Positions 2,917 through 17,131 of a stretch of 64,000 nt of DNA are shown piece after piece (positions within the stretch are counted from its first letter, which is position 1; the number at the start of each line of letters is the position of its first letter). A program made the translations under genes and the position numbers. The DNA lies in NCBI RefSeq assembly GCF_007625075.1, contig NZ_QMIE01000005.1, positions 62,001 to 126,000 of the forward strand. Direction: 5' to 3'. This DNA comes from Oceanidesulfovibrio indonesiensis. GTDB lineage: Bacteria; Desulfobacterota; Desulfovibrionia; Desulfovibrionales; Desulfovibrionaceae. The notes beneath the pieces are model-generated. The model did not search any database, was not told where the DNA came from, and saw only the letters and a list, made by a program, of their open reading frames with translations.

Positions 2917-4394
2917 GCCGGAGCCTCCATGCGGGGCAGGCCGATGACGAATGTGGCTCCCCGTCCTGTCTCGGAGGTGGCGTGCAACCAGCCGCCGTGC
3001 TCCTCCACGATGCGTTTGGAAATTGCCAGCCCCAGGCCGGTGCCGTCTTCCTTGGTGCTGACGAACGGTTCGAACAGGTGCGCCCGGACATTGTGCGGCA
3101 AGCCGGGCCCGTTGTCCGCCACCCGGACGATGGCCACCCGTCCGTATGGTTCCATCACGCCTTCCTCTTCGGTGATAGTCACGGCGCCGCCTTCGCCCAT
3201 TGCTTCCATGCCGTTGATCAGCAGGTTCACCAGTACTTCCTTGAGCTGGTCCGGGTCGCCGAGCACTACTGGCAGGGGCTTCTCACGGTGCACGGTCACG
3301 TCTATGTGCATGGACTCGAGCTTGTGGCGGAGCAGTTGGAGGGTCTGGTCCACGACCGAAGAGAGGCTTAAAGGCTGGGGCTTGAGTTTGGGCGGTCTGG
3401 AGAATTCGAGGAAGTTTTTGAGGATCGTGTCGATGAAGTCGATCTCCTCGCTGATGACGTCCAGGTCTTCGCGCGTTTCCGGAGTGGACGGCAGGCTGCG
3501 CTCCAGGGTGAAAAGCCGCATCTTTACCGAAGTCAGCGGGTTACGCACGCTGTGCGCGACACCGGCGGCCAGCTTGCCGATTGTGGCGAGTTTCTCCGCC
3601 TGCAGCAGATCCTCCCGGCTTTTGGCGAGTTTGTCCTGCGCCTGGCCCACGTCTTTGAGCAGAATTTGAATTCTGTCGCCGAGATACTCCACTTCGTCCA
3701 GGACTTCAGCTTCCTGGGCAGATTTGTCGACCCGGTTGGAGAGAACGTCTTTGAGCCGGTGAATCGGCGCGAGCACACGGCGCATGATGAGGATGGCCAG
3801 CAGCAGGCCGAGAATGGCGGCCGCCGGTATAGCCGACCAGGCGAGCCAGCTGAGGATCTTGAACTTGGTCCTGTAACCCTCGATGAGCGAGGTGATGTTC
3901 TTTTTCTGGCGCTGTTTGAACTGTCGGCACAGGTCGTTGACCTGGAAAAACTTCTGGCGCGCTTCGGCATGCAGTTCCACACTGCGTTGGCGATCGCCCT
4001 GCCGGAAGATATTGATGACCCGCTCCTTGAGCACGGAGTAGCGGACATATTCTGACTCTATGGCGAAAAGCAGGTTCCGCTCGTCCTTGGTTCGCGCCAT
4101 GTCGAAAGACGTGCGCCACCACATTTCGAAATCATCTTTGGATTGTGCCAGGCGCTCGAGCCAGGATTCGTCGCCGTCCATGAAAAAGTAGCTGACGTAC
4201 CCGCGTTGAGAGAGCAACGCACGTTGCATCTCCTGCGCGGCGTCCAGTGCTTCGGCGCCTTGCTCCATGGTTTCGGAAAACAGGGCCTGGGTGCGCTGCA
4301 CGTACCACAGGGTGACAAGCGCGCCGGTAAGGTTCACGGCCACAAGTATTCCCAGAAGGATGAAGATACGGCTTCGCAAGCCGAGAATTCGCAT
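2913..4394 (-). CDS. Sensor histidine kinase, partner of the NtrC-type regulator
   Basis: 493-residue membrane kinase. It has a membrane segment near residues 8-30, an all-helical extracytoplasmic domain with many charged residues (about 35-180, like four-helix-bundle sensors), a second membrane segment (about 185-206), a HAMP-like linker, an H-box VAHSVRNPL with His281, and an ATPase domain with an N-box, DNGPGL and GTGLGLAIS. The H-box has Ser in place of the common Glu after His. The ATG at 4394 is preferred over a TTG 15 bases upstream because GAGG lies 6 bases before it. The gene overlaps the downstream response regulator by 4 bp. The signal it senses cannot be told from sequence. Confidence 0.93.
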   Translation of the reverse strand: MRILGLRSRIFILLGILVAVNLTGALVTLWYVQRTQALFSETMEQGAEALDAAQEMQRALLSQRGYVSYFFMDGDESWLERLAQSKDDFEMWWRTSFDMARTKDERNLLFAIESEYVRYSVLKERVINIFRQGDRQRSVELHAEARQKFFQVNDLCRQFKQRQKKNITSLIEGYRTKFKILSWLAWSAIPAAAILGLLLAILIMRRVLAPIHRLKDVLSNRVDKSAQEAEVLDEVEYLGDRIQILLKDVGQAQDKLAKSREDLLQAEKLATIGKLAAGVAHSVRNPLTSVKMRLFTLERSLPSTPETREDLDVISEEIDFIDTILKNFLEFSRPPKLKPQPLSLSSVVDQTLQLLRHKLESMHIDVTVHREKPLPVVLGDPDQLKEVLVNLLINGMEAMGEGGAVTITEEEGVMEPYGRVAIVRVADNGPGLPHNVRAHLFEPFVSTKEDGTGLGLAISKRIVEEHGGWLHATSETGRGATFVIGLPRMEAPA

Positions 4395-4720
4395 CGAAGA
4401 CCTCACCAAACCAAAAGTTGAGTCGGCTGTTTCAGTGGGTGCCTCTGTGTATGGACGATAACGTCGCAGCCTTCAAGCCCGTATTTTTGCTGAGCGATCC
4501 GAAAAAAAGCCTGTTGGAGGTATTGCCCATTGTCTGCCTTTGCACCATATGAAAAAACGTATCGGTATCCGAGCAACCGGTATTTGCCGGAGCACACAGC
4601 GCTGATACGCTGAGGCCCCCCCGGCACTTGTCGCATGGAGCCATGCAGGACGTGGTCGTCATTGCGCCAGCCTGTACGATATTTCTGCCCGCGGCAATTT
4701 ACTCAAGGACAGAACGCCAC
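4395..4720. other. Divergent intergenic region
   Basis: About 326 bases separate the kinase gene (minus) and the sigma-54 activator gene (plus) and must hold both promoters. No clear -24/-12 or strong -35/-10 was found. A short inverted repeat GCATGG-AG-CCATGC at 4633-4646 is the only obvious dyad. A TTG at 4628 could extend the rightward gene, but it has no ribosome site. Confidence 0.5.
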
Positions 4721-6244
4721 ATGCCCACACGAAGCAAGACCGCGAACTCCAACGGAGGCGGTATCCGTTCGTCCGCTCGACGCGCCATGCTTATCGCAAC
4801 TTCGCGCGGCGAGGAGCTGGAGCAACTGCGGTCCGCGCTTGCGGGCCAGTGGCGGATCATGAGTTGTATCGACAGCGGCGAGCTGTTGTCCATGTCCCTG
4901 GCCTCGCCGTGCTTTGCAGTGCTCGTGGATGTGGATTTTTTGCGTGACGTCGCCTCGCAGGATTCAGGGGCGCAGGCAGGCGGCGCCGAGGCGGGCCTGC
5001 ATCTCCTGTGGAAGCGCGTTCCAGGCGCTCACGTGGTCATACTTGCCGGAGCCGGGGACATGCGCGAGGTCGTGGCCACGGTAAAGAAGGGTGCCGACAA
5101 CTATCTGACGTACCCCATTCACCCCGATGAGGTCCGCTACGTGCTGGAAAGTCTCGAAGCAGCGCACCGCATGGAGGGGGAACTCTCCTATCTGCGCGAC
5201 AGCTTCTGGGGCGAGGACGTGAAACGGCTGACCCGAACGGAAAGCCCGGCCATGCGCGAGGTCCTGACCAAAGCCAAGGCCGCCGCTCCCACGAGTGCGC
5301 TCATCCTGCTCACCGGCGAATCCGGCACGGGCAAGAGCTCCCTTGCCAAGCTCATCCATGCGCATTCCATGCGCAAGGATAAGCCCTTTGTAGCCGTGCA
5401 CTGCGGCGCCATTCCGGACACCCTTGTGGAAAGCGAACTCTTCGGCCACGAGAAAGGCGCCTTCACAGGCGCAGTGCGCCGCAAGCTCGGAAAATTCGAG
5501 ATCGCCCACGGCGGCACCCTTTTCCTCGACGAGGTCGGCACGCTGTCCATGGCAGCCCAGGTCAAGCTGCTCCAGGTCCTGCAGGAGAAAACCTTCCATC
5601 GCGTGGGCGGGGAGACGGACATCCTTACCGATGCCCGGGTCATCGCAGCGGCCAATCAGGATCTCAAGGCCATGGTGCGCGAGGGGCGGTTCCGCGAGGA
5701 CCTCTACTACCGGCTCAACGTCTTCCCCCTGGACATCCCGCCGCTGCGCGAGCGCAAGATGGACATCCCATTGCTGGTGGCGAGCTTTCTCGAACGGCTC
5801 GGCAGCGAGTACGGCAAGCAACTGCACGGCGTGACTCCGGAAACGCTGGAGGCCCTCGCCCGCTACGACTGGCCCGGGAACGTGCGCGAGTTGGAAAACC
5901 TCGTGGAGCGTGCCTTCATCCTGGAAGACTCCCACATGCTCACCCTGGACAGTTTCCCGGTGGAGTTCCATCCAGCCCATGCCTGCTACGCCGAGCAGGC
6001 GCAACGCAGCGTTGGTGCGGAGATGACCCTGGCCGAAGTGCGCGAACAAGCCAGGGACGCCGTGGAAAAGCAGTACCTTCAAGACGTGCTCGCCATGCAC
6101 GGCGGCCGCATCAACAAAACCGCCGCCCATGCCGGCATCACCCCCAGGCAGCTGCACAAACTCATGGCCCGTCACGGCCTGGACAAAAAGCAATATAAGA
6201 ATGCCTCCGGCGGCCAGGGGATCATTGACCCCCAGGCCCCCTGA
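4721..6244 (+). CDS. Sigma-54-dependent activator with degenerate receiver domain
   Basis: 507-residue enhancer-binding protein. The N-terminal 150 residues keep the outline of a receiver domain (LVDVDF in the phospho-site strand), but the acidic pair after the first strand is replaced by ATS and the signalling Lys-Pro is replaced by YPIHP. It is therefore probably not switched by ordinary phosphorylation. The AAA+ core is intact (GESGTGKS at 199-206, GAFTGA at 246-251, FLDEVG), and a Fis-type helix-turn-helix closes the protein (GRINKTAAHAGITPRQL). The start is the ATG at 4721, preceded by AAGGA. It is an orphan with no kinase on the same strand. The next operon (aminomutase/ATP-grasp genes) starts 205 bp downstream, behind a hairpin, and its possible control by this protein is only a guess. 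Confidence 0.9.
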   Translation: MPTRSKTANSNGGGIRSSARRAMLIATSRGEELEQLRSALAGQWRIMSCIDSGELLSMSLASPCFAVLVDVDFLRDVASQDSGAQAGGAEAGLHLLWKRVPGAHVVILAGAGDMREVVATVKKGADNYLTYPIHPDEVRYVLESLEAAHRMEGELSYLRDSFWGEDVKRLTRTESPAMREVLTKAKAAAPTSALILLTGESGTGKSSLAKLIHAHSMRKDKPFVAVHCGAIPDTLVESELFGHEKGAFTGAVRRKLGKFEIAHGGTLFLDEVGTLSMAAQVKLLQVLQEKTFHRVGGETDILTDARVIAAANQDLKAMVREGRFREDLYYRLNVFPLDIPPLRERKMDIPLLVASFLERLGSEYGKQLHGVTPETLEALARYDWPGNVRELENLVERAFILEDSHMLTLDSFPVEFHPAHACYAEQAQRSVGAEMTLAEVREQARDAVEKQYLQDVLAMHGGRINKTAAHAGITPRQLHKLMARHGLDKKQYKNASGGQGIIDPQAP

Positions 6245-6250
6245 CTTGGC

Positions 6251-6292
6251 CCAGGGAGCATAGCTCCCTGGTGGGGGCCGCGGGCAAAGCCC
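6251..6292 (+). terminator. Bipartite hairpin, probable terminator
   Basis: A 9-bp stem CCAGGGAGC / GCTCCCTGG with an ATA loop starts 7 bases after the stop codon at 6244. A second short stem GGGC-AAA-GCCC at 6282-6292 follows. There is no T-tract, so termination is inferred from position. The second half (GGGC, three bases, GCCCTCGGA) recurs near 22838. Confidence 0.5.
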
Positions 6293-6357
6293 TCGGAGGC
6301 TATGGTCGGTCCTCGCATTTCCGTATTTCCATCGAAATTCGGAACTTTGGGTTCCCT

Positions 6358-6390
6358 TTTATTCTGATTTTTTCAAAAAAACAGAATAAA
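6358..6390. repeat. AT-rich inverted repeat upstream of the aminomutase operon
   Basis: Two 16-base arms (TTTATTCTGATTTTTT and AAAAAAACAGAATAAA) separated by one C pair at 15 of 16 positions. The patch is strikingly AT-rich for this genome and lies about 60 bp before the first gene of the operon at 6449. It could be an operator or a two-way terminator for the preceding gene. It also creates long A and T runs typical of bent promoter DNA. Confidence 0.55.
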
Positions 6391-6448
6391 TACAAGGTCA
6401 TGCAATGTGGTCCGCCCTTTGCTGTGGGCGAAGCGTCGAGGAGGCCCC

Positions 6449-6787
6449 ATGAACGCGCACCAGGCTTTAGAGACATTCACGGGCATCGTTTGCCCGCTGG
6501 TCACCAACGAATACGGGTTCGTTTCCGACATGGTGCTCGCCTGTCCGGGCGAGCGGGACGTCCACATCCATATGGACAGGGAAGGCAGGGCGCTCGCGCG
6601 GGCCTCGCTGACCAGGGAAAAGGCGTCCATAGTGCGCGTGCACGGGGTGGTCGAGCCTTCCGACGACGGCGATGTCAGCGGACACGGCGTGGTTCTCCAT
6701 GTCCGGCAGTTCGAGGTCCTTTGCGTTGCGGGACCGGAGGAATCGCATAATCCATTTCCAGACCAGGAGGTCATGGAACCGTCATGA
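6449..6787 (+). CDS. Conserved-looking small protein heading the aminomutase operon, unknown function
   Basis: 112-residue protein not recognised. The ATG at 6449 has a strong GAGGAGG ribosome site. Its stop overlaps the start of the radical SAM gene by 4 bp (ATGA), so the two are translationally coupled. The sequence is soluble and beta-rich. The stretch at about residues 53-88 alternates hydrophobic residues (SIVRVHGVV, then VVLHVRQFEVL) as in a small OB-fold or beta-barrel, but that is only an impression. There is no signal peptide, no membrane segment and no metal motif; Cys12 and Cys90 are isolated. Coupling argues that it is needed with the enzymes, as a subunit, substrate carrier or regulator. 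Confidence 0.7.
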   Translation: MNAHQALETFTGIVCPLVTNEYGFVSDMVLACPGERDVHIHMDREGRALARASLTREKASIVRVHGVVEPSDDGDVSGHGVVLHVRQFEVLCVAGPEESHNPFPDQEVMEPS

Positions 6788-8079
6788 CGAGAGACAACGA
6801 GTTGGAGGCGTTCGAGCCTCCCAGCGGCGGAGCAGCCGCACACGTCGTCAGGGCAACCGTCCCGATGCCGAAACGCGCGAAATACGCCAGCGGCGCTGAA
6901 AGGGACGCCTTCCGCAAGAGCTTCTTTCCCGGCGCGACTCGCGCAGAATGGAACGACTGGCGCTGGCAGATCGCCCACCGCGTGACCTCGCCGGCCGAGT
7001 TGTTCCGGCATATCAACCCCACTACCCAGGAAACGCTGGCGCAGTCCGGCGAGTTTCCACTGGCCGTGACGCCGTATTATCTGAGCCTTGTGGACGGCGG
7101 CGATCCCGCGTGCCCGGTGCGCCGAGCCGTGGTCCCCACCATGCAGGAGGCCGTGCTCGGCCCCGGCGAGGCCGACGACCCCCTGGGCGAGGAGGGCCAC
7201 AGCCCCACGCCCGGCATCGTGCACCGCTACCCGGACCGTGTGCTCTTCCTGGCAACGGACTTCTGCTCCACGTACTGCCGTTACTGCACGCGTTCGCGAC
7301 TGGTGGGCCGTGGCAATGCGGGGTCGGTGCGCGCCCGGTGGGACAAGTGCATCGAGTATATCGCAGCCACGCCGACTGTCCGCGACGTCATCGTGTCAGG
7401 CGGCGACCCCCTGACCATGCCTGACGAAGCCATCGACTATCTGTTGGGCCGGCTCCAGGCCATCAGCCATGTGGAGATAGTCCGTCTGGGCACCAAGGCG
7501 CCGGCCGTGCTGCCGCAACGCATCACCCCGGGCCTGGTGCGCATGCTCAAGAAGCACCATCCGTTGTTCATGAGCTGCCACATGATGCACCCCAGGGAGC
7601 TCACGCCCGAGACCAACCAGGCTTTCGAACGACTTGCCGACGCGGGCATTCCCCTGGGCAGCCAGACGGTGCTGCTGGCCGGCGTGAACGATGCGCCGGA
7701 CACGCTGGCCGCGTTGTTTCACGGTTTGCTCAGGGTGCGCGTGCGACCGTACTACCTGTATCAGTGCGATCCCATCCGCGGTTCGGCCCATTTCCGCACC
7801 ACGGTGTCCAGGGGCATCGAACTGATGACGTCCCTGCGAGGCCATACCTCGGGCTACGCAGTGCCCACCTACGTGGTGGACGCGCCGGGGGGCGGCGGCA
7901 AGGTGCCCATCTACGCGCAGACCATGCTCGGCTATGATGAAAACGGCCTGGCTCTGGTGAACTACGAAGGCCAAGTCTACCATTATCCGAATGCGCAGCT
8001 GCCACTGGCGGCAACGGCGGGGCAGATGGCCCAGCCCGCGGCTGTGCGTTCCGCAATGCCTGCCATGGAGACGTCATGA
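6784..8079 (+). CDS. Radical SAM lysine 2,3-aminomutase-like enzyme (KamA family)
   Basis: 431 residues. The radical SAM cluster is CSTYCRYC (Cys161, Cys165, Cys168), followed by Arg170, which matches the carboxylate-binding Arg of clostridial lysine 2,3-aminomutase. The PLP lysine is Lys373 in DAPGGGGK. Two acidic residues that hold the substrate side-chain amine in the lysine enzyme (Asp293 and Asp330 there) are present as Asp329 (YQCD) and Asp366 (VVDAP), with identical spacing to each other and to the PLP lysine. Glutamate 2,3-aminomutases replace them, so L-lysine to beta-lysine is the likely reaction. The N-terminus is longer than in EpmB, and no EpmA/EF-P gene is nearby, so translation-factor modification is unlikely. 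It overlaps both neighbours by 4 bp in an operon with ATP-grasp ligases and acetyl-transfer enzymes. Confidence 0.9.
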   Translation: MTRDNELEAFEPPSGGAAAHVVRATVPMPKRAKYASGAERDAFRKSFFPGATRAEWNDWRWQIAHRVTSPAELFRHINPTTQETLAQSGEFPLAVTPYYLSLVDGGDPACPVRRAVVPTMQEAVLGPGEADDPLGEEGHSPTPGIVHRYPDRVLFLATDFCSTYCRYCTRSRLVGRGNAGSVRARWDKCIEYIAATPTVRDVIVSGGDPLTMPDEAIDYLLGRLQAISHVEIVRLGTKAPAVLPQRITPGLVRMLKKHHPLFMSCHMMHPRELTPETNQAFERLADAGIPLGSQTVLLAGVNDAPDTLAALFHGLLRVRVRPYYLYQCDPIRGSAHFRTTVSRGIELMTSLRGHTSGYAVPTYVVDAPGGGGKVPIYAQTMLGYDENGLALVNYEGQVYHYPNAQLPLAATAGQMAQPAAVRSAMPAMETS

Positions 8080-9086
8080 CGACCATCGCCCTGACCTTTG
8101 ACCTTCGCGACGACTATCTTGCTCGCGGGTTCAGCGAGCAGCAGACCGCGGAGTTCGACCGCGCCGACACCATCGACGCCATCGAGCGAGGACTCGCGCT
8201 CCTGGGCTACCGCACCGTGCGCGTGGGCAACGCCTACGATCTCATCGCAGCGCTGGCCGCCGGTGCGCGGTGGGACCTCGTGTTCAACATCTGCGAAGGG
8301 CTCTACGGCTTCGGCCGCGAATCCCTCGTGCCGGCGCTGCTGGACCACTACCGCATTCCGTACGTGTTCTCCGATCCGCTGGTCCTGGCCATGACCCTGC
8401 ACAAGGGCGTGGCCAAACGCGTGGTGCGGGACCAGGGCGTACCCACGCCGGATTTCGCCGTGGTGGAGCGCATGGCCCAGCTGGACCGGCTGGCGCTGCC
8501 GGCCTTCCCACTGTTCGTCAAACCGGTGGCAGAAGGCACGGGCAAGGGCGTGGCCTCTTCCTGCCTGGTGACCGACAAGGCCGCGCTCACGGAGCGAGTC
8601 GCTGCGCTTCTGGCCGAGCATGAGCAGCCGGTTCTTGTGGAAACGTATCTGCCGGGCCGCGAGGTCACCGTGGGCATTACCGGAACCGGAAGCCGGGCGC
8701 GTGTGGCCGGCGTCATGGATATCGTGCTCAAAAAAGGCGCCGATCCGGCCTGCTACACCTACCGCAACAAGGAAGAGTGTGAAGAGCTGGTGGAGTACAG
8801 GGCCGTGACCGGGACGCCGAGCGAGGAGCCCGCCAGGGTTGCCCTGGCCGCCTACCGGGCCCTCGGCGTGCGCGACGCCGGCCGGGTGGATCTGCGGCAG
8901 GACGCGCAGGGCCGGTATCAGTTCATGGAAATCAATCCTTTGCCCGGCATGCATCCTGAACACTCGGATCTGCCGATCCTGTGTTCGCTGTGCGGCATCG
9001 GGTTTCTCGATCTGCTTACGCGGATCATGGACTCGGCAAGCGAACGCATTCCCTGTATGAACCGGCCGGACCGGAAAGCGGCGTAG
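8076..9086 (+). CDS. ATP-grasp ligase, D-Ala-D-Ala ligase-like (first copy)
   Basis: 336-residue ATP-grasp enzyme. The N-terminal part carries a Ddl-like VFNICEGLYGFGRES segment. The central part has LHKGVAKRVVRDQGVPTPDF and the ATP-binding FVKPVAEGTGKGV. The C-terminal metal/phosphate site is MEINPLPGMHPEHSDLP, where Ddl has EVNTLPG. Such enzymes join a carboxylate (as acyl phosphate) to an amine. The position directly after an aminomutase and the lack of peptidoglycan genes nearby suggest a dedicated ligation of the beta-amino acid rather than cell-wall synthesis. The start overlaps the aminomutase stop by 4 bp. The substrates are inferred, not shown. Confidence 0.87.
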   Translation: MTTIALTFDLRDDYLARGFSEQQTAEFDRADTIDAIERGLALLGYRTVRVGNAYDLIAALAAGARWDLVFNICEGLYGFGRESLVPALLDHYRIPYVFSDPLVLAMTLHKGVAKRVVRDQGVPTPDFAVVERMAQLDRLALPAFPLFVKPVAEGTGKGVASSCLVTDKAALTERVAALLAEHEQPVLVETYLPGREVTVGITGTGSRARVAGVMDIVLKKGADPACYTYRNKEECEELVEYRAVTGTPSEEPARVALAAYRALGVRDAGRVDLRQDAQGRYQFMEINPLPGMHPEHSDLPILCSLCGIGFLDLLTRIMDSASERIPCMNRPDRKAA

Positions 9087-9093
9087 GTGGCGT

Positions 9094-10131
9094 ATGCGTA
9101 TAGCAGTGGTGCATTCTGATGTGGGGTCCAAGCCATCGCCAGACGACCTGGACACTCTCGTCCAGGCCGAAGCCGTAACCGCGCGGCTCGCAGCGAGCGG
9201 ACACGAGGTATTCACCCTTCCGGTGCGCCAGCCGGTGCGGCATACCCTGGAGCGGTTGGCCCGCAGCCGGGTGGAACTGGTGTTCAACCTGGTGGAGACC
9301 CTGGGCGGCACGAGCGAGAGCGCCTATCTGCTGCCTTCGACCCTGGAGCAGGCCGCGGTGCCGTTCACCGGCGCCGGGTCGCAGGCTCTGCTGGTGACTG
9401 GCAACAAGCTCGCGGCCAAGCGTCTTATGCGCAGCGCCGGCATCGCCACCCCGGCGTGGGAGGAGGCCGGGTCTGAATTCGGAACAACGAGTTCCGATTA
9501 TGCGTTCCAGCCCGGTCCCTACCTCGTGAAATCGGTATGGGAGCATGGCTCCCATGGTCTGGACGGCGATTCCGTGATCTCGTTCGCGGACAAGGCCGCG
9601 GTCCGCAGCGCTCTGGTGCGCAAACAGCGCGAGCTTGGCGGGGCCTGGTTTGCGGAGGCGTATGTGGCCGGCCGCGAGTTCTGCGTGGGCATGCTGGAGC
9701 GGGAGGGGCAGCCGTGCGTGCTGCCCACGTATGAAATACGTTTTGAAGGCGACGTCGGGTCTCCTTGGCTCGTGGACTATGCCGCGAAATGGGACGAATC
9801 CTCGGCCATGGCGCAGGCAACGCCCAGATGCTGGGATTTTCCGGCGGAAGACGGGGGGCTGGTCAAACGGCTGGAGGCGGCGGCGCTGCAATGCTGGCGC
9901 CTCTACCGTTTGTCCGGGTACGCGCGGGTGGACATGCGCGTGGACGCGGACGGCGTGGTCCATGTATTCGACGTGAACGCCAACCCCTGCCTGAGTCCGG
10001 ACGCCGGCTTCGCTGCGCAACTGGAGCGCGGCGGCCTGGGGTTGAGCGGCGGGTTGGAACTCATCGTGGCCGCGGCCCTGGATAACCGTGAGACCCCGTT
10101 TTTCCACAGTCCTTCGCGGCAGGCGGCGTGA
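9094..10131 (+). CDS. ATP-grasp ligase, D-Ala-D-Ala ligase-like (second copy)
   Basis: 345 residues, clearly distinct from the preceding ligase. It shows the same order of elements: VFNLVETLGGTSES at about residue 64, GNKLAAKRLMRSAGIATPAW, an ATP-lid region with LVKSVWEHGSHGL, and a C-terminal FDVNANPCLSPDAG metal-binding stretch. Two consecutive ATP-grasp enzymes of different sequence suggest two different bonds, that is a three-unit product or two alternative partners. Its start lies 7 bp after the previous stop, and its end overlaps the next gene by one base. Family assignment is good; the acceptor is unknown. Confidence 0.86.
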   Translation: MRIAVVHSDVGSKPSPDDLDTLVQAEAVTARLAASGHEVFTLPVRQPVRHTLERLARSRVELVFNLVETLGGTSESAYLLPSTLEQAAVPFTGAGSQALLVTGNKLAAKRLMRSAGIATPAWEEAGSEFGTTSSDYAFQPGPYLVKSVWEHGSHGLDGDSVISFADKAAVRSALVRKQRELGGAWFAEAYVAGREFCVGMLEREGQPCVLPTYEIRFEGDVGSPWLVDYAAKWDESSAMAQATPRCWDFPAEDGGLVKRLEAAALQCWRLYRLSGYARVDMRVDADGVVHVFDVNANPCLSPDAGFAAQLERGGLGLSGGLELIVAAALDNRETPFFHSPSRQAA

Positions 10132-11885
10132 TGTTCCGAATCCGACGCGTGTTCGACGACCTGCTGCCGCGGGACGCACGGACCATTGGCCAGGTCCAGG
10201 CGTTGCTCCGCGACCGCTTTCCGGCAGTAAGCGAGCAGGAAGTGCGCCAACTGCCGGCGCAACTGCGCGATCCGCTCAAACATCGTTTCCGCACCGTGCT
10301 GTTCGCGGCCGAATCGGCCGAGCGGCTGGCCGGCTTCGCGCTCATGCTGCACGTGCCGGACGTGGGGTTCTGCTGGCTGGACTACATAGCCACGCAGGAG
10401 GGAGTGGCAGGACGCGGCGTTGGCGGCGCATTGTACGAACGCGTGCGGGAGGAAGCGCGCTTTCTCGGCGAGGCCGGGCTGTTCTGCGAGTCGTTACCGG
10501 CCGATGCGGAGCATTGCCGCGATCCTGACATCCGCAGGGAGAACCGCGCCAGACTGCGCTTTTACGAACGGCTCGGGGTGCGCATCGTGGCGAACACGGC
10601 GTACGAAACACCGCTTATCGAAGAACCTGCGCCGTGCCCGCCCCACCTGCTGTTCGATCCGCTTTCGGCGGACAGACCACTTTCTCGGGACATCGCCAGG
10701 CGCGTTGTCCGCACCATCCTGGAGCGCAAATACGGCGAGCGCTGCCCGGAAGGATACATCGATGCGGTGGCGGAATCCTTCCGGGACGATCCGGTGCGCC
10801 TTGCCGAGCCGCGGTACGCCAAACCATCGAACCATGCGCTGCCCAGGGTCTCGCCGCAGGTCGTGCTTACGGTGAACGACCGCCACGACATTCACCACGT
10901 GCGCGAGCGTGGATATGTGGAGTCGCCGGCGCGTATCGACGCCATTCTCAGAAAAATCGAGCCTTCCGGTCTGTTCGAACGCATCCGAGTGCGGCAGTAT
11001 TCCCTGCGCCATGCCACGGCCGTGCATGATGCCGGGATGGTGGGCTACTTCCGCGCCGTATGCGCAAAGCTGGGAGAGAAGGAGGCGGTCTATCCGTACG
11101 TTTTCCCCATCCGCAACCAGACCAGGCCGCCTCGCGAACTGCCCAGACGAGCCGGATATTACGTCATCGACACATTCACGCCGCTGAGCCGTAACGCCTT
11201 CCTCGCCGCTCGACGCGCCGTGGACTGCGCCCTCACCGCTGCGGACGCTGTTCTCGAAGGCGTCCGTCTGGGCTACGCCCTGGTGCGTCCGCCTGGCCAC
11301 CACGCGGAGCGACGGGCCTTTGGCGGGTTCTGCTATCTGAACTCCACAGCCATCGCGGCCAACCATCTGGCGGAGTTCGGCCGAGTGGCCGTGCTGGACG
11401 TGGACTTCCACCATGGCAACGGCACGCAGGACATCTTCTATGAACGCTCGGACGTGCTGACGATCTCAATCCACGGCCACCCCAACGGCGCATATTCATA
11501 CTTCTCAGGATTCGCGTCGGAGCGCGGGGAAGGCCAGGGCCGGGGGTACAACGTGAATTTTCCCCTGCCGGACGGTGTGGATGGCGAAGGGTATCGCGCA
11601 GTCCTGAACAGGGCCGTCAAACGCATCGCCCGCTTCAAGCCGCGGTTTCTCGTGGTGGCTCTGGGGCTGGATACGGCCAAGGGCGATCCCACGGGCGCGT
11701 GGGGGCTCATTCCGGCGGATTTCGAGAAGAACGGCCGCATGCTCGGCCATCTCGGCCTGCCCACGCTGGTGGTGCAGGAGGGCGGCTACCGGACTGCGAG
11801 CCTGGGCGCCAACTGCCTCGCTTTTTTCCGCGGGCTCAGCGAAGGCGTGCGGGAGCGGACGCGGAACACTGAGCAGACGATATGA
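10131..11885 (+). CDS. Fusion of GNAT acetyltransferase and acetylpolyamine-amidohydrolase-like deacetylase
   Basis: 584 residues with two opposing activities. Residues 1-165 form a GNAT N-acetyltransferase with an acetyl-CoA loop near GVAGRGVGGALY. Residues about 240-580 form a zinc deacetylase of the histone-deacetylase fold. It has the His pair 390-391 (RPPGHHAE), zinc ligands Asp425 and His427 (DVDFHHGNG), Asp514 (GLDTAKGD) and transition-state Tyr553 (EGGYR). Motifs such as LGLDTAKGDP and the DTFTPLSRN segment resemble acetylpolyamine amidohydrolases more than histone deacetylases, suggesting a small acetylated amine such as an N-acetyl-lysine derivative. An ATG at 10131 (one-base overlap) and a GTG at 10128 (four-base overlap) are both possible starts. 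A protect-then-deprotect scheme on one polypeptide is an attractive inference. Confidence 0.88.
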   Translation: MFRIRRVFDDLLPRDARTIGQVQALLRDRFPAVSEQEVRQLPAQLRDPLKHRFRTVLFAAESAERLAGFALMLHVPDVGFCWLDYIATQEGVAGRGVGGALYERVREEARFLGEAGLFCESLPADAEHCRDPDIRRENRARLRFYERLGVRIVANTAYETPLIEEPAPCPPHLLFDPLSADRPLSRDIARRVVRTILERKYGERCPEGYIDAVAESFRDDPVRLAEPRYAKPSNHALPRVSPQVVLTVNDRHDIHHVRERGYVESPARIDAILRKIEPSGLFERIRVRQYSLRHATAVHDAGMVGYFRAVCAKLGEKEAVYPYVFPIRNQTRPPRELPRRAGYYVIDTFTPLSRNAFLAARRAVDCALTAADAVLEGVRLGYALVRPPGHHAERRAFGGFCYLNSTAIAANHLAEFGRVAVLDVDFHHGNGTQDIFYERSDVLTISIHGHPNGAYSYFSGFASERGEGQGRGYNVNFPLPDGVDGEGYRAVLNRAVKRIARFKPRFLVVALGLDTAKGDPTGAWGLIPADFEKNGRMLGHLGLPTLVVQEGGYRTASLGANCLAFFRGLSEGVRERTRNTEQTI

Positions 11886-12379
11886 AGGCGCTCACCATAC
11901 GGACAGAACCGCTGTCCGGGGATGCCGGACGGGTCCGCAAACTCGTGGAGGCTACGGGCTTTTTCCGGCCGGATGAGGCGGACGTGGCCGAGGAGCTGGT
12001 GCTGGAGCGTCTCGGCAAAGGGCTCGCGAGCGGCTACCATTTTCTCTTCGTGGACGCGTCGAACGAGGATCGCCTCGATGGCTACGCCTGCTACGGCCCC
12101 GCGCCGTGCACTGTCGGCACGTTCGACCTCTACTGGATCGCCGTGCATCCGGAAGCGCAGGGCCGAGGGCTGGGCCGTGAACTGTTCGAGGCAGTGGCAG
12201 CCGCCGCGCTGGAGCAGGGCGGCCGCATCCTCATTGCCGAGACCTCCTCGCGGCCGCAATATGCACCCACGCGGCGATTCTACGACCGCTGCGGGTGTGA
12301 GGTCGGCGCCATCGTCCGGGAATTCTACGACGTGGACGACGACAAGGTAATATACACGCGCAAGCTGGCTCGTCCATGA
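11882..12379 (+). CDS. GNAT-family N-acetyltransferase
   Basis: 165 residues forming a single GNAT domain, with the acetyl-CoA pyrophosphate loop at about residue 95-106 (HPEAQGRGLGREL) and a C-terminal beta strand plus FYDRCGCEVGAIVREFY typical of the fold. The start overlaps the upstream fusion gene by 4 bp, and it is the last gene of the operon. In methanogens a GNAT enzyme (AblB) acetylates beta-lysine at the side-chain amine after an aminomutase (AblA). A comparable step is plausible here, but this protein is shorter and only the family is certain. Confidence 0.87.
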   Translation: MKALTIRTEPLSGDAGRVRKLVEATGFFRPDEADVAEELVLERLGKGLASGYHFLFVDASNEDRLDGYACYGPAPCTVGTFDLYWIAVHPEAQGRGLGRELFEAVAAAALEQGGRILIAETSSRPQYAPTRRFYDRCGCEVGAIVREFYDVDDDKVIYTRKLARP

Positions 12380-12411
12380 CAGTCTGTTGAAAACCCTCCG
12401 ATCGTTGCGTC

Positions 12412-12521
12412 ATATTACCGGGAGCAAGAAGTTAAAAACTTCCTGCTCCGGCCCCGCCGGAGCGTGGCCGTCCTCAGAACTGGGGCGCGAAAATGCAGGA
12501 ATTTTCTGCTCCCAGTAATAT
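12412..12521. repeat. Dispersed palindromic element, copy A
   Basis: 110-bp element bounded by inverted ends: ATATTACCGGGAGCAAGAAG on the left, and on the right the complement of ATATTACTGGGAGCAGAAAA. The GC-rich core contains GGAGCGTGGCCGTCC and GGGGCGCGAAAATG. Related copies lie at 17398-17523 (same orientation) and 45622-45748 (opposite). It encodes no protein. It could be a MITE-like mobile element or a large REP-type palindrome. Confidence 0.75.
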
Positions 12522-12667
12522 CTTTCACACGCACTCGCGCACCTCCTGATCGTCTCACGCATTGCCGATCTCTACGAGCGCATGGCCCGTCGCGGGCGCG
12601 TACATCCCAGTGCCCAGCGCATGGGCTTGCAGGAAAAAAGAAGAACCCGGGGCGGCCTTGCATATTC

Positions 12668-12695
12668 GGCGGGTTGATTTTAAGGCTAACCCGCC
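12668..12695 (+). other. Stem-loop in the leader of the TonB-receptor gene
   Basis: A perfect 8-bp stem GGCGGGTT / AACCCGCC with a 12-base loop lies about 100 bp before the receptor start. The palindrome GCCGATCGGC follows at 12697. No known riboswitch core was recognised. The rest of the 413-base gap 12380-12792 holds repeat copy A and, at about 12530-12670, a frame with coding-like codon use but no start codon that may be a gene remnant. Confidence 0.4.
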
Positions 12696-12792
12696 GGCCG
12701 ATCGGCATGTGTTTACCTCGCTGCAAGGATAGAGCTATTTCGCGCAGGGAATCGCGCTGTGTGGGATTCTCGGGCAAAGGTACCGTATTACG

Positions 12793-14952
12793 ATGACGAA
12801 AAATTTTCTTCACTACATGCTCTCGACTCTGGGTTGCCTGTTATTGCTGCTTGCGGGGCAGGCGTTCGCGCAGAGCGATTCGGGCGCATCTGATGTTGAT
12901 CTCACGGAGTTGTCGCTCGAAACGCTCATGAGCATCCAGGTCGTGACGGCATCGCGCGAGGAGCAGGCGCTATTCAAGACGGCGTCGGCTGTGTACGTCA
13001 TCACCTCAGAAGATATCCGGCGTTCCGCCGCCACCTCCATACCGGACATCCTGCGCACCGTGCCCGGCGTGAACGTAGCGCAGATCAACGCGAACACCTG
13101 GGCCGTCACCGTGCGGGGTTTCAATCAACGGTTCTCCAGCAAGCTCCTCGTGCTCAAGGACGGCATGACCATCTACACGCCCACGTTCTCCGGCGTGTAT
13201 TGGGACATCCGGGACACGCTGATCGAGGACGTCGACCGCATCGAGATCATCCGCGGCCCCGGGGGCGCGCTGTGGGGCGCCAATGCGGTGAACGGCATCA
13301 TCAACATCATCACCAAGAACGCCGCGGATACCCAGGGCGGTCTCGTGGCCGCGTCCGGCGGCACGGAATCGGGCTCTGTGGCCGGCCGCTGGGGCGGCAC
13401 GGTGGGAGACGATCTCGCGTACAGGATATGGGCCGAAGGCGAGTTGCATGACGCCTCGGTGCATGACGACGGCTCACGGGGACAGGATGAATGGGAATCC
13501 CTGAAAGGTGGCATTCGTGCGGATCTCAGCCCCACGGACGACGACCGGGTGACGTTCATTGCAGACTTCTTCACCGGCCATGTCGGGCAGAACACCTGGA
13601 TCCCCAGCCCGAACGCGCCGGGCAGCCTGTACCTGGACGAGTACGAAAGTCCGTACTGGGGCGGGAACATGCTGCTTCGCTGGGAGCACGACTTTTCGAA
13701 AGACGTCGACCTGGCCATGCAGGTTTTTTTCGACACCGTGGAGCTGAAACGACGTTTCAAACCCGGAATTTACGGGCCTTCACAGAAAGCTCGCGAGGCG
13801 ACATACACGCTGGATTTCGACTCCCAACTCAGTTTTCCGCTCGGTTCGCGGCACGATGTGATCGTGGGATTCGGCTACCGCTCCATCTGGGATTCCTTTG
13901 ACGGCGATCCGTACTGGGTGCTCACGATGTCGCCGTCCCATCTGCAACGCTCCATCTTCAGCGCGTTCATTCAGGACACCATCGCCCTGTGGGAGGATCA
14001 GTGGTCCCTCATTCTGGGATGCAAGGTCGAGCACAACGACTACACCGGCTTCGAGGTCCAGCCTTCGGCGCGGCTGCTGTGGACGCCCAACGACCGACAC
14101 ACCGTATGGGCGGCGGTGTCCCGCGCCGTACGCACCCCCTCGCGCGTGGAGCGGGATGCGCTCTACATGCGCCAGCCCGCAATGGAGGTCGCGAACATGG
14201 GGCTTTCGCCGGCGGCCGCTGCATTCGCATCCATGGGCGGCCTCAGATCGTTATTGGCCCTCGGAACGGCGACCGGAGGCTTCGGTATGGGCGGTCAGGC
14301 GTCCATCCCGGTCGTGCCGGAGCTGCAGGGCAGCGGCGACTTTGTTTCGGAAGAGCTCATCGCCCTGGAGCTGGGCTACCGCATGCAGCCCGCGGACGAG
14401 TTCAGCCTGGACGTCGCCGGTTTCGTGAATTTCTATGAGAAGCTTATGACCATGGAGGCGAACAACCTCGTACTGGGTCCCGGATATGCCCTGCTGGGCG
14501 TGAAGACCACCAACGACCGCAAAGGCGTGGGATACGGCGTGGAGGTCTCGGCCAAATGGAACGCCACGGACTGGTGGCGCCTTGAGGCTGCATACAGCTT
14601 TCTGGAGGTCGACAGCTGGGTGAACACGGTGGGCCGCAACCTGCTGCCGCAGTTCGAGACGGAGCAGAGCCCGCAGCACAGCGCTTCGTTGCAATCGTCC
14701 ATGGACCTGCCCCACAATATCGAGCTCGACCTGATCGGCCGCTACACCAGCGAGCTGGACGGCCTGGATATCGGCGACATAATGGAGATGGATGCGCGTC
14801 TCGCCTGGACGCCGTACGAGAACCTCGAAATAGCGTTGATCGGCCGCAACCTGCTCCACGACCACCACGCCGAGTATAAGGACAGGATCGTCTATCTCGG
14901 CGATTCCCAGATCGAGCGCAGTGTCCTCGCCAAGGTGACGTGGCGTTTCTGA
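12793..14952 (+). CDS. TonB-dependent outer-membrane receptor
   Basis: 719 residues. A signal peptide (about 1-26, cut after QAFA) is followed by a short segment ending in LMSIQVVTASR, then a plug domain with PDILRTVPGVNV, VRGFNQR and the end motif VDRIEIIRGPGGALWGANAVNGIINIITK. A long beta-barrel follows, ending in the terminal aromatic WRF needed for outer-membrane insertion. It would import a siderophore, vitamin or other large ligand using TonB energy; the ligand is unknown. It is followed with a one-base overlap by a YfiR-like gene and a CHASE8-type kinase, an arrangement suggesting that receptor and signalling genes form one operon. The start at 12793 gives a clean signal peptide. Confidence 0.95.
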   Translation: MTKNFLHYMLSTLGCLLLLLAGQAFAQSDSGASDVDLTELSLETLMSIQVVTASREEQALFKTASAVYVITSEDIRRSAATSIPDILRTVPGVNVAQINANTWAVTVRGFNQRFSSKLLVLKDGMTIYTPTFSGVYWDIRDTLIEDVDRIEIIRGPGGALWGANAVNGIINIITKNAADTQGGLVAASGGTESGSVAGRWGGTVGDDLAYRIWAEGELHDASVHDDGSRGQDEWESLKGGIRADLSPTDDDRVTFIADFFTGHVGQNTWIPSPNAPGSLYLDEYESPYWGGNMLLRWEHDFSKDVDLAMQVFFDTVELKRRFKPGIYGPSQKAREATYTLDFDSQLSFPLGSRHDVIVGFGYRSIWDSFDGDPYWVLTMSPSHLQRSIFSAFIQDTIALWEDQWSLILGCKVEHNDYTGFEVQPSARLLWTPNDRHTVWAAVSRAVRTPSRVERDALYMRQPAMEVANMGLSPAAAAFASMGGLRSLLALGTATGGFGMGGQASIPVVPELQGSGDFVSEELIALELGYRMQPADEFSLDVAGFVNFYEKLMTMEANNLVLGPGYALLGVKTTNDRKGVGYGVEVSAKWNATDWWRLEAAYSFLEVDSWVNTVGRNLLPQFETEQSPQHSASLQSSMDLPHNIELDLIGRYTSELDGLDIGDIMEMDARLAWTPYENLEIALIGRNLLHDHHAEYKDRIVYLGDSQIERSVLAKVTWRF

Positions 14953-15548
14953 TGATGCAGCAAGCAGTTATGACGGGGATGCGAAAGTTTCTGCCGACGC
15001 GAAGGATAGCCTGCGCCGTTGCGGCCGTGGTTCTCCTGGCGTGTCTCGCCATGCATCCCTTGACGAGCAGTGCCGGGGATGTGCGCCAGCCCACCGAGCA
15101 TGAGGTCAAGGTGGCGCTGCTGTACAAGTTCGCCAACTTCGTGGACTGGTCCGAGGATGCGATGCAGGGCGCGGAAACTTTCCGCCTGTGCATGCTCGGT
15201 GAAAGTCCCTTCGGCGATGCGCTTGAACTGCTCGAAGGCAAGCGGATCAAAAATCGTCCTCTGGAACTGCTCTTCGCATCCAGTCCCGAGCATGCCCGTG
15301 GGTGCCATATCATATTCGTCAACCAGAAATGGAACAGCCGCCTTGGCGAAGTGCTGGAAGTGCTGGGTTCGCAGGGCGTGCTGTTCGTGGGTGACGGCTC
15401 AGGCTTCGCCAGGCGCGGCGGCGTGCTTGAATTCGCACTGGAGGGCGGCCGCGTGGGATTCGTCATCAATCCCGAGGCGGCGCGCCGGGAAGGGCTCGTC
15501 GTCAGCTCGAAACTGATGCGCCTGGCCCGCATCGTCGGGACGGACTGA
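14952..15548 (+). CDS. YfiR-family periplasmic protein (DUF4154)
   Basis: About 198 residues. A hydrophobic signal segment (around residues 10-35) is followed by the family's hallmark start EHEVKVALLYKFANFVDW and by motifs such as GCHIIFVNQKW, LFVGDGSGFA and GGRVGFVINPEAARREGL. In the Pseudomonas YfiBNR system, YfiR is a periplasmic repressor of a CHASE8 diguanylate cyclase. Here the partner is the CHASE8-type kinase encoded 14 bp downstream. The ATG at 14952 overlaps the receptor stop by one base; an ATG at 14970 is also possible. Confidence in the family is high, and the partner role is inferred from the known system. Confidence 0.9.
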   Translation: MMQQAVMTGMRKFLPTRRIACAVAAVVLLACLAMHPLTSSAGDVRQPTEHEVKVALLYKFANFVDWSEDAMQGAETFRLCMLGESPFGDALELLEGKRIKNRPLELLFASSPEHARGCHIIFVNQKWNSRLGEVLEVLGSQGVLFVGDGSGFARRGGVLEFALEGGRVGFVINPEAARREGLVVSSKLMRLARIVGTD

Positions 15549-15562
15549 AAGGTCGCCCGGAT

Positions 15563-17131
15563 ATGCACAGCTTCCGCACACTTTCCATCGGCCGCAAGCT
15601 TTTGCTGGTCATCATGCTCACGAGCATGACGGCCGTGGTGCTCGCTTCGGGCGCGTTGCTGCTCAACGACTACCTTTCCTTCCGCAAGGGCATGGCGCGG
15701 GACCTGGGCGTGATCACCGCGATCATCGCCGAGAATCTCAACGCCGCGCTGTACTTCCAGGATCCGGACGCCGCTCACGAAACTCTGTCCGCACTCGACA
15801 CCAATCCACGCATACGCGGCGGCTGGCTTTACGCCGCGGACGGCTCGCTTTTCGCAGCCTACGCCAGGCAAGACGCGGAGGTGGCGCGGATGTTCACGAG
15901 TCTCGGCATCCCCATGTTCGGCGACGGCATGCGCCTGGAGTCCGACATCATGGCCAGATATCTGCCTGTGCACGTGCAGGGCGAGCGCGTGGGCACCCTG
16001 TACGTGGAGAGCGACCTGCAGGAGCTCGAGAACCGCCTGCACGCCAATCTGGGCATCGCGCTTCTCGTCTTCGCGGCGGCGTCGTTCGTTGCGCTTGTGC
16101 TTTCGGCATTCTTCCAGCGGCTCATATCTCGTCCGGTCTCGGCCCTGGCCGAGACTGCCCGGCGCATCTCGCGCGACAAGGACTACACCCTGCGCGCCGA
16201 GTTGTTCGGCGAGGACGAGCTGGGCCAGTTCGCCATGACGTTCAACGAAATGCTCGACGAGGTCCAGCGCCGGGACGAAGCATTGGCGCGATACAGCCGC
16301 GAGCTCGAACTGGAAATTGCCGAACGTGGCAGGGTCCAGCAGGAATTGCAGGTGGCCAAGGAAGCTGCCGAGGAATCCAACAGGATAAAGAGCGAGTTCC
16401 TCTCCATGGTTTCGCACGAGCTGCGCACACCGCTCACGTCGGTGCGCGGATACGCCAAGCTCAGCCACAAGCGGCTCCAGCGCTTCATCTTTCCCTGCGT
16501 GCCGGACGACGATCCCAGGCTGGACAAGGTCAAGCACCAGGTGGACTCGAACATGCAGATCATCGTTTCGGAGAGCGAGCGTCTGACCTACCTCATCAAC
16601 GACGTACTCGACCTGAACAAGCTCGATGCCGGGGTTGTGGACTGGAACATGGAGGCGCACGACTTGGGCGAAATCGTCGAGCATGCCCTGAATGTGTGCG
16701 GCAACCTTTTCGACGGCAAGGACGTTGTCGGTTCCATGAGCATCGCCGAGGACATTCCGCCGGTACGGTGCGACCGCAACCGCATCCTCCAGGTCCTCAT
16801 CAACCTCATCTCGAACGCCGCCAAATTCACCAACAGCGGCGAGGTGGCCGTCCATGTGGATAGAGGCCCCGGCGAACTGGTCGTGAGCGTGTCGGATACG
16901 GGAGTCGGCATCAGGCCAGAGCACCGCGAAGCCATATTCGAACGCTTCCGACAGCTGGGCGACACCCTTACGGACAAGCCGGCGGGCACGGGCCTAGGCC
17001 TGGCCATCTGCAAGGAGATCGTGGAGGTGCACGGCGGTCGAATATGGATGGAGCCCAACACGGAGCGAGGCAGCGTCTTCCGGTTCACCTTGCCGTTTGC
17101 GGGGCAGGCGTCGTCACAGCCGGGCCGGTAA
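15563..17131 (+). CDS. Sensor histidine kinase with CHASE8-like periplasmic domain
   Basis: 522 residues. There is a membrane segment at about 12-34, a periplasmic domain (35-150) with the CHASE8 pattern AIIAENLNAALYFQDPDAA, and a second membrane segment at about 155-180. A HAMP domain, a coiled coil, His285 in SHELRTPLTS and an ATPase domain (NLISNAAKF, DTGVG, GTGLGLAI) complete it. There is no receiver domain, so phosphate must pass to a separate regulator not encoded next door. An AAAGG ribosome site precedes the ATG. Third gene of the receptor-YfiR-kinase operon, it would report receptor or envelope state to the cytoplasm. Confidence 0.93.
   Translation: MHSFRTLSIGRKLLLVIMLTSMTAVVLASGALLLNDYLSFRKGMARDLGVITAIIAENLNAALYFQDPDAAHETLSALDTNPRIRGGWLYAADGSLFAAYARQDAEVARMFTSLGIPMFGDGMRLESDIMARYLPVHVQGERVGTLYVESDLQELENRLHANLGIALLVFAAASFVALVLSAFFQRLISRPVSALAETARRISRDKDYTLRAELFGEDELGQFAMTFNEMLDEVQRRDEALARYSRELELEIAERGRVQQELQVAKEAAEESNRIKSEFLSMVSHELRTPLTSVRGYAKLSHKRLQRFIFPCVPDDDPRLDKVKHQVDSNMQIIVSESERLTYLINDVLDLNKLDAGVVDWNMEAHDLGEIVEHALNVCGNLFDGKDVVGSMSIAEDIPPVRCDRNRILQVLINLISNAAKFTNSGEVAVHVDRGPGELVVSVSDTGVGIRPEHREAIFERFRQLGDTLTDKPAGTGLGLAICKEIVEVHGGRIWMEPNTERGSVFRFTLPFAGQASSQPGR

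Follow-up and report, generated by a model that had tools for sequence, protein, structure and literature searches.

A widespread aminomutase, ligase and acetyltransferase gene cluster in Oceanidesulfovibrio indonesiensis and its possible beta-lysine peptide product

The six-gene operon at 6449-12379 of the stretch analysed here (the window, 64,000 nucleotides of Oceanidesulfovibrio indonesiensis DNA) is not a local assembly: a related cluster is widespread over many phyla. We propose, with slightly less than even confidence, that the operon encodes a dedicated pathway, independent of nonribosomal peptide synthetases (NRPS), for an intracellular acetylated beta-lysine peptide. A fuller version of this proposal is held more tentatively: the product would be an acetylated beta-lysine di- or tripeptide whose synthesis needs neither ribosome nor NRPS and which the GNAT-deacetylase protein would switch; it would belong to core physiology in at least 10 phyla and would be under sigma-54 control in many Desulfobacterota.

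Operon layout, the first gene and sigma-54 control

All six open reading frames of 6449-12379 were confirmed in place on the + strand. The first gene, p1 (6449..6787), encodes a small OB-like protein of 112 aa. It overlaps by 4 bp with p2 (6784..8079), which encodes a KamA-family radical SAM aminomutase of the lysine type, and p2 in turn overlaps by 4 bp with p3 (8076..9086), the gene of a first ATP-grasp ligase of the D-alanine--D-alanine ligase (Ddl) type (ligase 1; Dala_Dala_lig_C, 89.9 bits). After a 7-bp gap follows p4 (9094..10131), which encodes a second such protein (ligase 2; Dala_Dala_lig_C, 41.1 bits). The product of p5 (10131..11885) is a fusion of a GNAT with a domain of the histone-deacetylase/acetylpolyamine-amidohydrolase type (GNAT-HDAC; Hist_deacetyl 246.9 bits, Acetyltransf_1 29.1 bits), and that of p6 (11882..12379), which overlaps p5 by 4 bp, is a GNAT acetyltransferase (Acetyltransf_1, 46.3 bits). 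The initial annotation, made from the letters and their open reading frames, had listed six consecutive genes with overlaps of 1-4 bp or a 7-bp gap, among them two distinct Ddl-like ligases, a GNAT-deacetylase fusion and a GNAT; coordinates and Pfam domains agree with it on each count.

Gene starts are less certain than gene positions. For p5, the ATG at 10131 gives a 1-bp overlap with p4, and a GTG at 10128 is also possible, with an overlap of 4 bp; relatives of p5 start with MFRIRR or similar. A codon-usage gene caller trained on core genes found all six genes on one strand, with later starts for p2, p4 and p6. The genes of the compared loci were also re-called by codon usage, because neighbour clusters 5, 7 and 9 resembled antisense shadows. 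Just downstream, at 12793-17131, a TonB-dependent receptor, a YfiR-like protein (DUF4154) and, judged by its sequence, a histidine kinase follow in a row and appear to form a separate signalling unit. The receptor and the YfiR-like protein were rejected as operon members, since they lie outside the conserved set in the compared loci.

No Pfam or NCBIfam match was found for p1, which had already been called an unknown small protein. Its AlphaFold2 model (pLDDT 82.7) is OB-fold-like, with weak Foldseek matches to OB folds, none of them under 0.001. The family is recurrent: the 1,529 genes called in 123 loci include 28 matches at E<=0.05, a count made with a model trained on many of these same loci; its recurrence in related clusters indicates that p1 is no chance open reading frame. 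The family is also diverse: in some loci it occurs as a pair with one secreted-looking member (from a reading of the N termini), and a PG_binding_1 domain is carried by the members in loci L063 and L132 and by a p1-like protein, assigned by resemblance, in L169. Such proteins, like the Ddl type of the ligases, would suit an envelope pathway, in which peptidoglycan, a lipid or a surface polymer receives beta-lysine or a beta-lysyl peptide, with the OB-like proteins as sensors or binders of the wall. We regard this as unlikely, for p1 is present in a minority of loci, the conserved set of the compared loci holds no glycosyltransferase, Mur-type ligase, flippase or other envelope gene, and the host genome has a Ddl of its own, encoded by another gene that narrowly passes the curated cut-off (246.5 vs 245.65 bits).

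Directly upstream of the operon lies the gene of a sigma-54-dependent activator (4628..6244, + strand; Sigma54_activat, 230.9 bits), whose true start is uncertain, the codon-usage call beginning at 4787. Between the two, 25 bp before p1, a sigma-54 (-24/-12) promoter-like site, TGGTCCGCCCTTTGCT, occupies 6408..6423 on the + strand. Its score of 16.6 is reached by 0.005 of shuffles that preserve base composition only. It is the sole exact match in the window to a pattern that had been loosened to fit it, and with one mismatch allowed the same pattern is not rare (5 found vs 5.94 expected). Relatives of the activator gene lie near the operon in many Desulfobacterota loci, and sigma-54-type sites are found ahead of the operon in 13 of the 24 loci where an activator gene is close by vs 6 of the 77 where none is, counts that are partly affected by wrong gene starts. 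When 15 hand-picked loci were re-scored, 8 had sites at p<=0.02 and 7 did not (0.05 to 0.92). Both site and gene are present in the window, neither being mentioned in the initial annotation, and the promoter may drive the operon under the adjacent activator. Riboswitch control was rejected, as no Rfam match was found in window positions 4000-14000 or in 7 related loci; a Na+ riboswitch is described before ablA of Dehalobacter in a section of PMC9337991.

Conservation of the core gene set

Among the 59 genomes around and including the host, ligase 1 is present in 29 at E<=1e-140, and any match at 1e-30 raises the number to 31. KamA and both ligases share a stretch in 8 of 22 examined GNAT-HDAC fusion loci. 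In a further 20 ligase-1 loci, KamA stands beside ligase 1 in every one and ligase 2 is present as well in 19.

Searched with a ligase-1 alignment, a collection holding one genome per species gave at least 564 confirmed relatives, of which the best 80 were kept. These loci were chosen by ligase 1 alone, so that their neighbours are a fair test of conservation, albeit for the closest ligase-1 relatives only; the counts that follow come from those of the best 80 of at least 564 whose flanking sequence sufficed. Of 72 such loci, 64 have KamA immediately upstream of ligase 1 and 69 have it within two genes. Ligase 2 is the next gene downstream, or is fused, in 66 of 70. In 53 of 58 loci a p6-type GNAT gene lies nearby in the same orientation; for the GNAT-HDAC the figure is 24 of 58, and the latter is thus not always part of the unit. 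The initial annotation had staked its reading on these genes being conserved together elsewhere, and in this set KamA, both ligases and the GNAT are kept together in 50 of 58 loci. The order of the core is fixed (KamA, ligase 1, ligase 2, GNAT), with the GNAT-deacetylase fusion often added.

The enzymes are also joined to one another. Ligase 1 is fused to ligase 2 in L129; ligase 2 is fused to a GNAT in L065, L096, L126, L140 and L165 (Pfam on L126); and the GNAT-HDAC is fused to a further GNAT in L087, L094, L114, L116, L166, L172, L174 and L183 (Pfam on L087). Such fusions make a common pathway likely. Two kinds of additional neighbour were seen. A Cys-rich protein of the CxxCxxCC type is encoded in five loci, mostly Planctomycetota records: between KamA and ligase 1 in L084, L096, L113 and L130, and ahead of ligase 1, where the contig ends, in L087. 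A CitMHS-type permease gene lies directly 3' of the operon only in L147 (11289-12467) and L165 (11618-12850).

A tree of 78 ligases from the best 80 of at least 564 relatives spans 11 phylum labels, taken from record titles, and requires 28 label changes vs the least possible 10. Bacteroidota form one group in it; several further labels appear at scattered places, a pattern that transfer, paralogy or mis-binning would each produce. Most of the records are metagenome-assembled genomes. Several titles among the same best 80 suggest, on our reading, fresh water.

In a sample of the host's phylum, 114 of 394 genomes have ligase 1 at E<=1e-80. From this list 20 further stretches were taken for their divergence or long contigs, and in 15 of them KamA, ligase 1 and ligase 2 are at most one gene apart. 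In the others, the genes are spread out (L159, L160), ligase 2 stands apart (L164) or KamA is missing (L161, L162). The last two loci encode two fused ATP-grasp domains, the second of which is ligase-1-like.

The enzymes and their known relatives

The aminomutase p2 has LAM_C (67.7 bits) and Radical_SAM (36.1 bits) domains in Pfam and passes the broad KamA model TIGR00238 (332.3 vs a cut-off of 199.2 bits). It falls under the cut-off of the AblA equivalog TIGR03820 (448.6 vs 525.4 bits) and under those of the arginine and glutamate 2,3-aminomutase models (346.5 vs 600 and 396.2 vs 650 bits, respectively). By alignment to 2a5h, its residues include C161, C165, C168, R170, D329, D366 and K373; following the 2a5h numbering, we take R170 to be the carboxylate arginine, D329 and D366 the aspartates for the side-chain amine, and K373 the PLP lysine. 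Operon KamAs called at over 280 residues were then aligned with 12 control KamAs, shorter calls being dropped, and the three Fe-S cysteines, R170, D329, D366 and K373 are kept in 118 of 118 operon KamAs. These residues support the prediction, made for p2 in the initial annotation, of a KamA-like enzyme of the lysine type, and extend it to the operon KamAs as a group. At D366, BlsG (arginine) has T and two rhizobial KamAs have C, so this column is able to separate substrates. The rhizobial KamAs with C at this lysine-holding aspartate (L009, L010) are plasmid-borne, and their substrate may differ.

On the one hand, the operon resembles the AblA/AblB system, AblA with or without AblB being treated in portions of PMC9337991 and PMC3543383: the two share a KamA-family aminomutase of the lysine 2,3 type, identical in its substrate residues, after which a GNAT would carry out acetylation. 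On the other hand, the operon has no AblB, two extra ligases, a deacetylase half and a KamA that mostly belongs to a separate clade. The AblB model TIGR03827 gave no match in p5, in p6 or elsewhere in the host genome at E<=0.001, whereas control AblBs score 274.5 and 303.1 bits. The operon is therefore not AblA/AblB, and the methanogen system cited in the initial annotation stands as a related but different route. A variant route to the osmolyte N-epsilon-acetyl-beta-lysine, with KamA, a replacement acetyltransferase and the ligases as accessories, would share its first enzyme and lysine-type residues with AblA, and p5 does turn up in the company of that system: in L042 (8460-16199) a GNAT-HDAC gene and a true ablA-ablB pair are about 4 kb apart, and three genomes of the phylum sample (L186, L189, L190) have p5, AblB elsewhere and no ligase 1 at threshold. 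Even so, we consider this variant very improbable. Neither GNAT matches the AblB model; the ligases are among the most constant parts of the cluster and are fused to each other or to a GNAT; 16 of the 59 related genomes have both AblB and the operon; and 110 of 118 operon KamAs cluster apart from AblA, in one FastTree clade with a Thioflavicoccus KamA (support 1.0). The remaining operon KamAs comprise 6 weakly placed near AblA and 2 grouped with a Leptospira KamA, unsupported.

Another KamA-family enzyme yields a beta-lysine donor in EF-P beta-lysylation (EpmB/EpmA). The operon differs from that system in that p2 scores 250.8 vs the EpmB cut-off of 369.3 bits and no EpmA-like gene was noticed in the cluster.

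Both p3 and p4 are of the Ddl type by profile comparison, and the model of p4 (pLDDT 90.9) has the Ddl fold. They share this fold and the ATP-grasp core with D-alanine--D-alanine ligases, but score far under the curated Ddl cut-off (116.7 and 57.8 vs 245.65 bits), which rules them out as orthologues of the cell-wall Ddl. As they are only about 26% identical to each other, p3 and p4 likely catalyse two different reactions. An acetyltransferase and an ATP-grasp ligase also come together, and are even fused, in the synthesis of N-acetylglutaminylglutamine amide (NAGGN), as in the ligase 2-GNAT fusions described above. NAGGN synthesis has no aminomutase, unlike the operon, and in the host genome the best score with the amidotransferase model of the NAGGN trio, 325.4 bits, does not pass the cut-off of 570.1.

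Beta-lysine and ATP-grasp ligases occur in natural products, and a secreted one containing beta-lysine (an antibiotic, a siderophore or a signal) has to be considered. A related cluster of this kind may exist on a Thioflavicoccus plasmid (L011, 6691-12172), where a KamA, a Ddl-like ligase, SbnA, an ornithine-cyclodeaminase-like gene and a diaminobutyrate transaminase lie together, the genes for 2,3-diaminopropionate among them; its ligase, beside KamA and related to the operon ligases, is annotated as a D-Ala-D-Ala ligase. For the operon itself we find a secreted product quite unlikely, given that the compared loci contain no conserved exporter or resistance gene and that the cluster is very evenly conserved over many phyla, unlike a typical natural-product cluster.

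The solved chains nearest to the HDAC half of p5 are acetylpolyamine amidohydrolases, and p5 shares all catalytic residues with these members of the histone-deacetylase family: the D-H-D zinc ligands and the His pair are kept in all 54 aligned rows and the catalytic Tyr in 53, with one gap, the window being counted twice among the rows. It differs from them in being fused to a GNAT and tied to KamA and the ligases. Of the 59 genomes around and including the host, 23 have the p5 fusion and all 23 have ligase 1 (Fisher 3.3e-11, for related genomes that are not independent). In the 394-genome phylum sample, 35 of 44 p5 genomes have ligase 1 at threshold. Of the remaining nine, two (L183 and L191) carry p5 next to a divergent KamA-ligase pair, three are the genomes with AblB elsewhere named above, and L184, L185 and L187 have no KamA called on the stretch. 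In the ninth, L188 (120-4604, on an 8.7-kb contig), a KamA, a GNAT-HDAC and a second KamA follow in a row, with no ligases. The genomic company of p5 points to a beta-lysine derivative as its probable substrate.

The kinship with acetylpolyamine amidohydrolases would also fit amine or polyamine turnover, or the attachment of a beta-lysyl peptide to a protein or another carrier in place of a free peptide, and in L155 and L156 the divergent operons come after the gene of a PuuR-like regulator (59.8 and 63.2 bits, under the PuuR cut-off of 211). We think either role improbable, as the core holds no polyamine enzyme and no constant carrier protein, and an obligatory carrier would have to be less variable and less rare than p1. 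The second acetylation protein, p6, is related over its full length to PDB 2r7h (E 2.6e-49), which is annotated as a putative D-alanine N-acetyltransferase.

A candidate pathway and its significance

The initial annotation had inferred an acetylated or peptide-linked beta-lysine compound (osmolyte, signal or natural product), and our results support that reading in part. In the beta-lysine peptide pathway that we propose, p2 would convert L-lysine to beta-lysine, as its residues suggest. The two ligases p3 and p4, which by their family would use ATP to form an acyl-phosphate, may then, one after the other, couple beta-lysine to one or two further amino acids or amines. Fusions and gene order suggest that the p6 GNAT would acetylate an amine of the product, and p5 may set or reverse the acetylation of a lysine-like side-chain amine. 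Deacetylation by p5 could serve temporary protection during ligation, or the switching or recycling of the finished compound; the deacetylase half has intact catalytic residues, so that amine protection and its later removal, as the initial annotation proposed, may take place.

Since the conserved set includes no transporter, the product probably stays in the cell. We favour an intracellular metabolite, the set looking like core physiology, and, by analogy with acetyl-beta-lysine and NAGGN, a stress metabolite such as a compatible solute would be its likeliest role. Among the 59 relatives, ligase 1 is found in 16 of 19 AblB genomes (Fisher 2.5e-4) and in 6 of 6 NAGGN genomes (Fisher 0.011). 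The association with AblB was set aside as support for an osmolyte, as it was not upheld in the wider phylum sample, where ligase 1 at threshold occurs in 1 of 14 AblB genomes, a lower bound that misses divergent ligases (L183, L191). The fresh-water titles among the best 80 ligase-1 relatives weigh in the same direction. Some observations speak against the peptide pathway: p5 without a called KamA nearby in L184, L185 and L187, ligases without KamA in L161 and L162, and signal peptides (on our own reading) or a peptidoglycan-binding domain in some p1 relatives, which fit an envelope role too.

The initial annotation had recognised no described pathway with this gene set, and our search of the full-text literature, outside which many subscription papers lie, likewise returned no account of the gene set, pathway or product. 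A 2009 work by Iyer et al. on amidoligases may mention such gene neighbourhoods. The portions of PMC3333781 and PMC4287179 consulted contain nothing on the gene set.

A gene set so constant over many phyla usually meets a common cell need. Its parts are easily misnamed, as with the related ligase annotated as a D-Ala-D-Ala ligase and the GNAT relative labelled a putative D-alanine N-acetyltransferase. Once the product is identified, the functions of at least five protein families would be settled together, and the compound itself could be a new solute, signal or wall component in sediment and sulfate-reducing bacteria.
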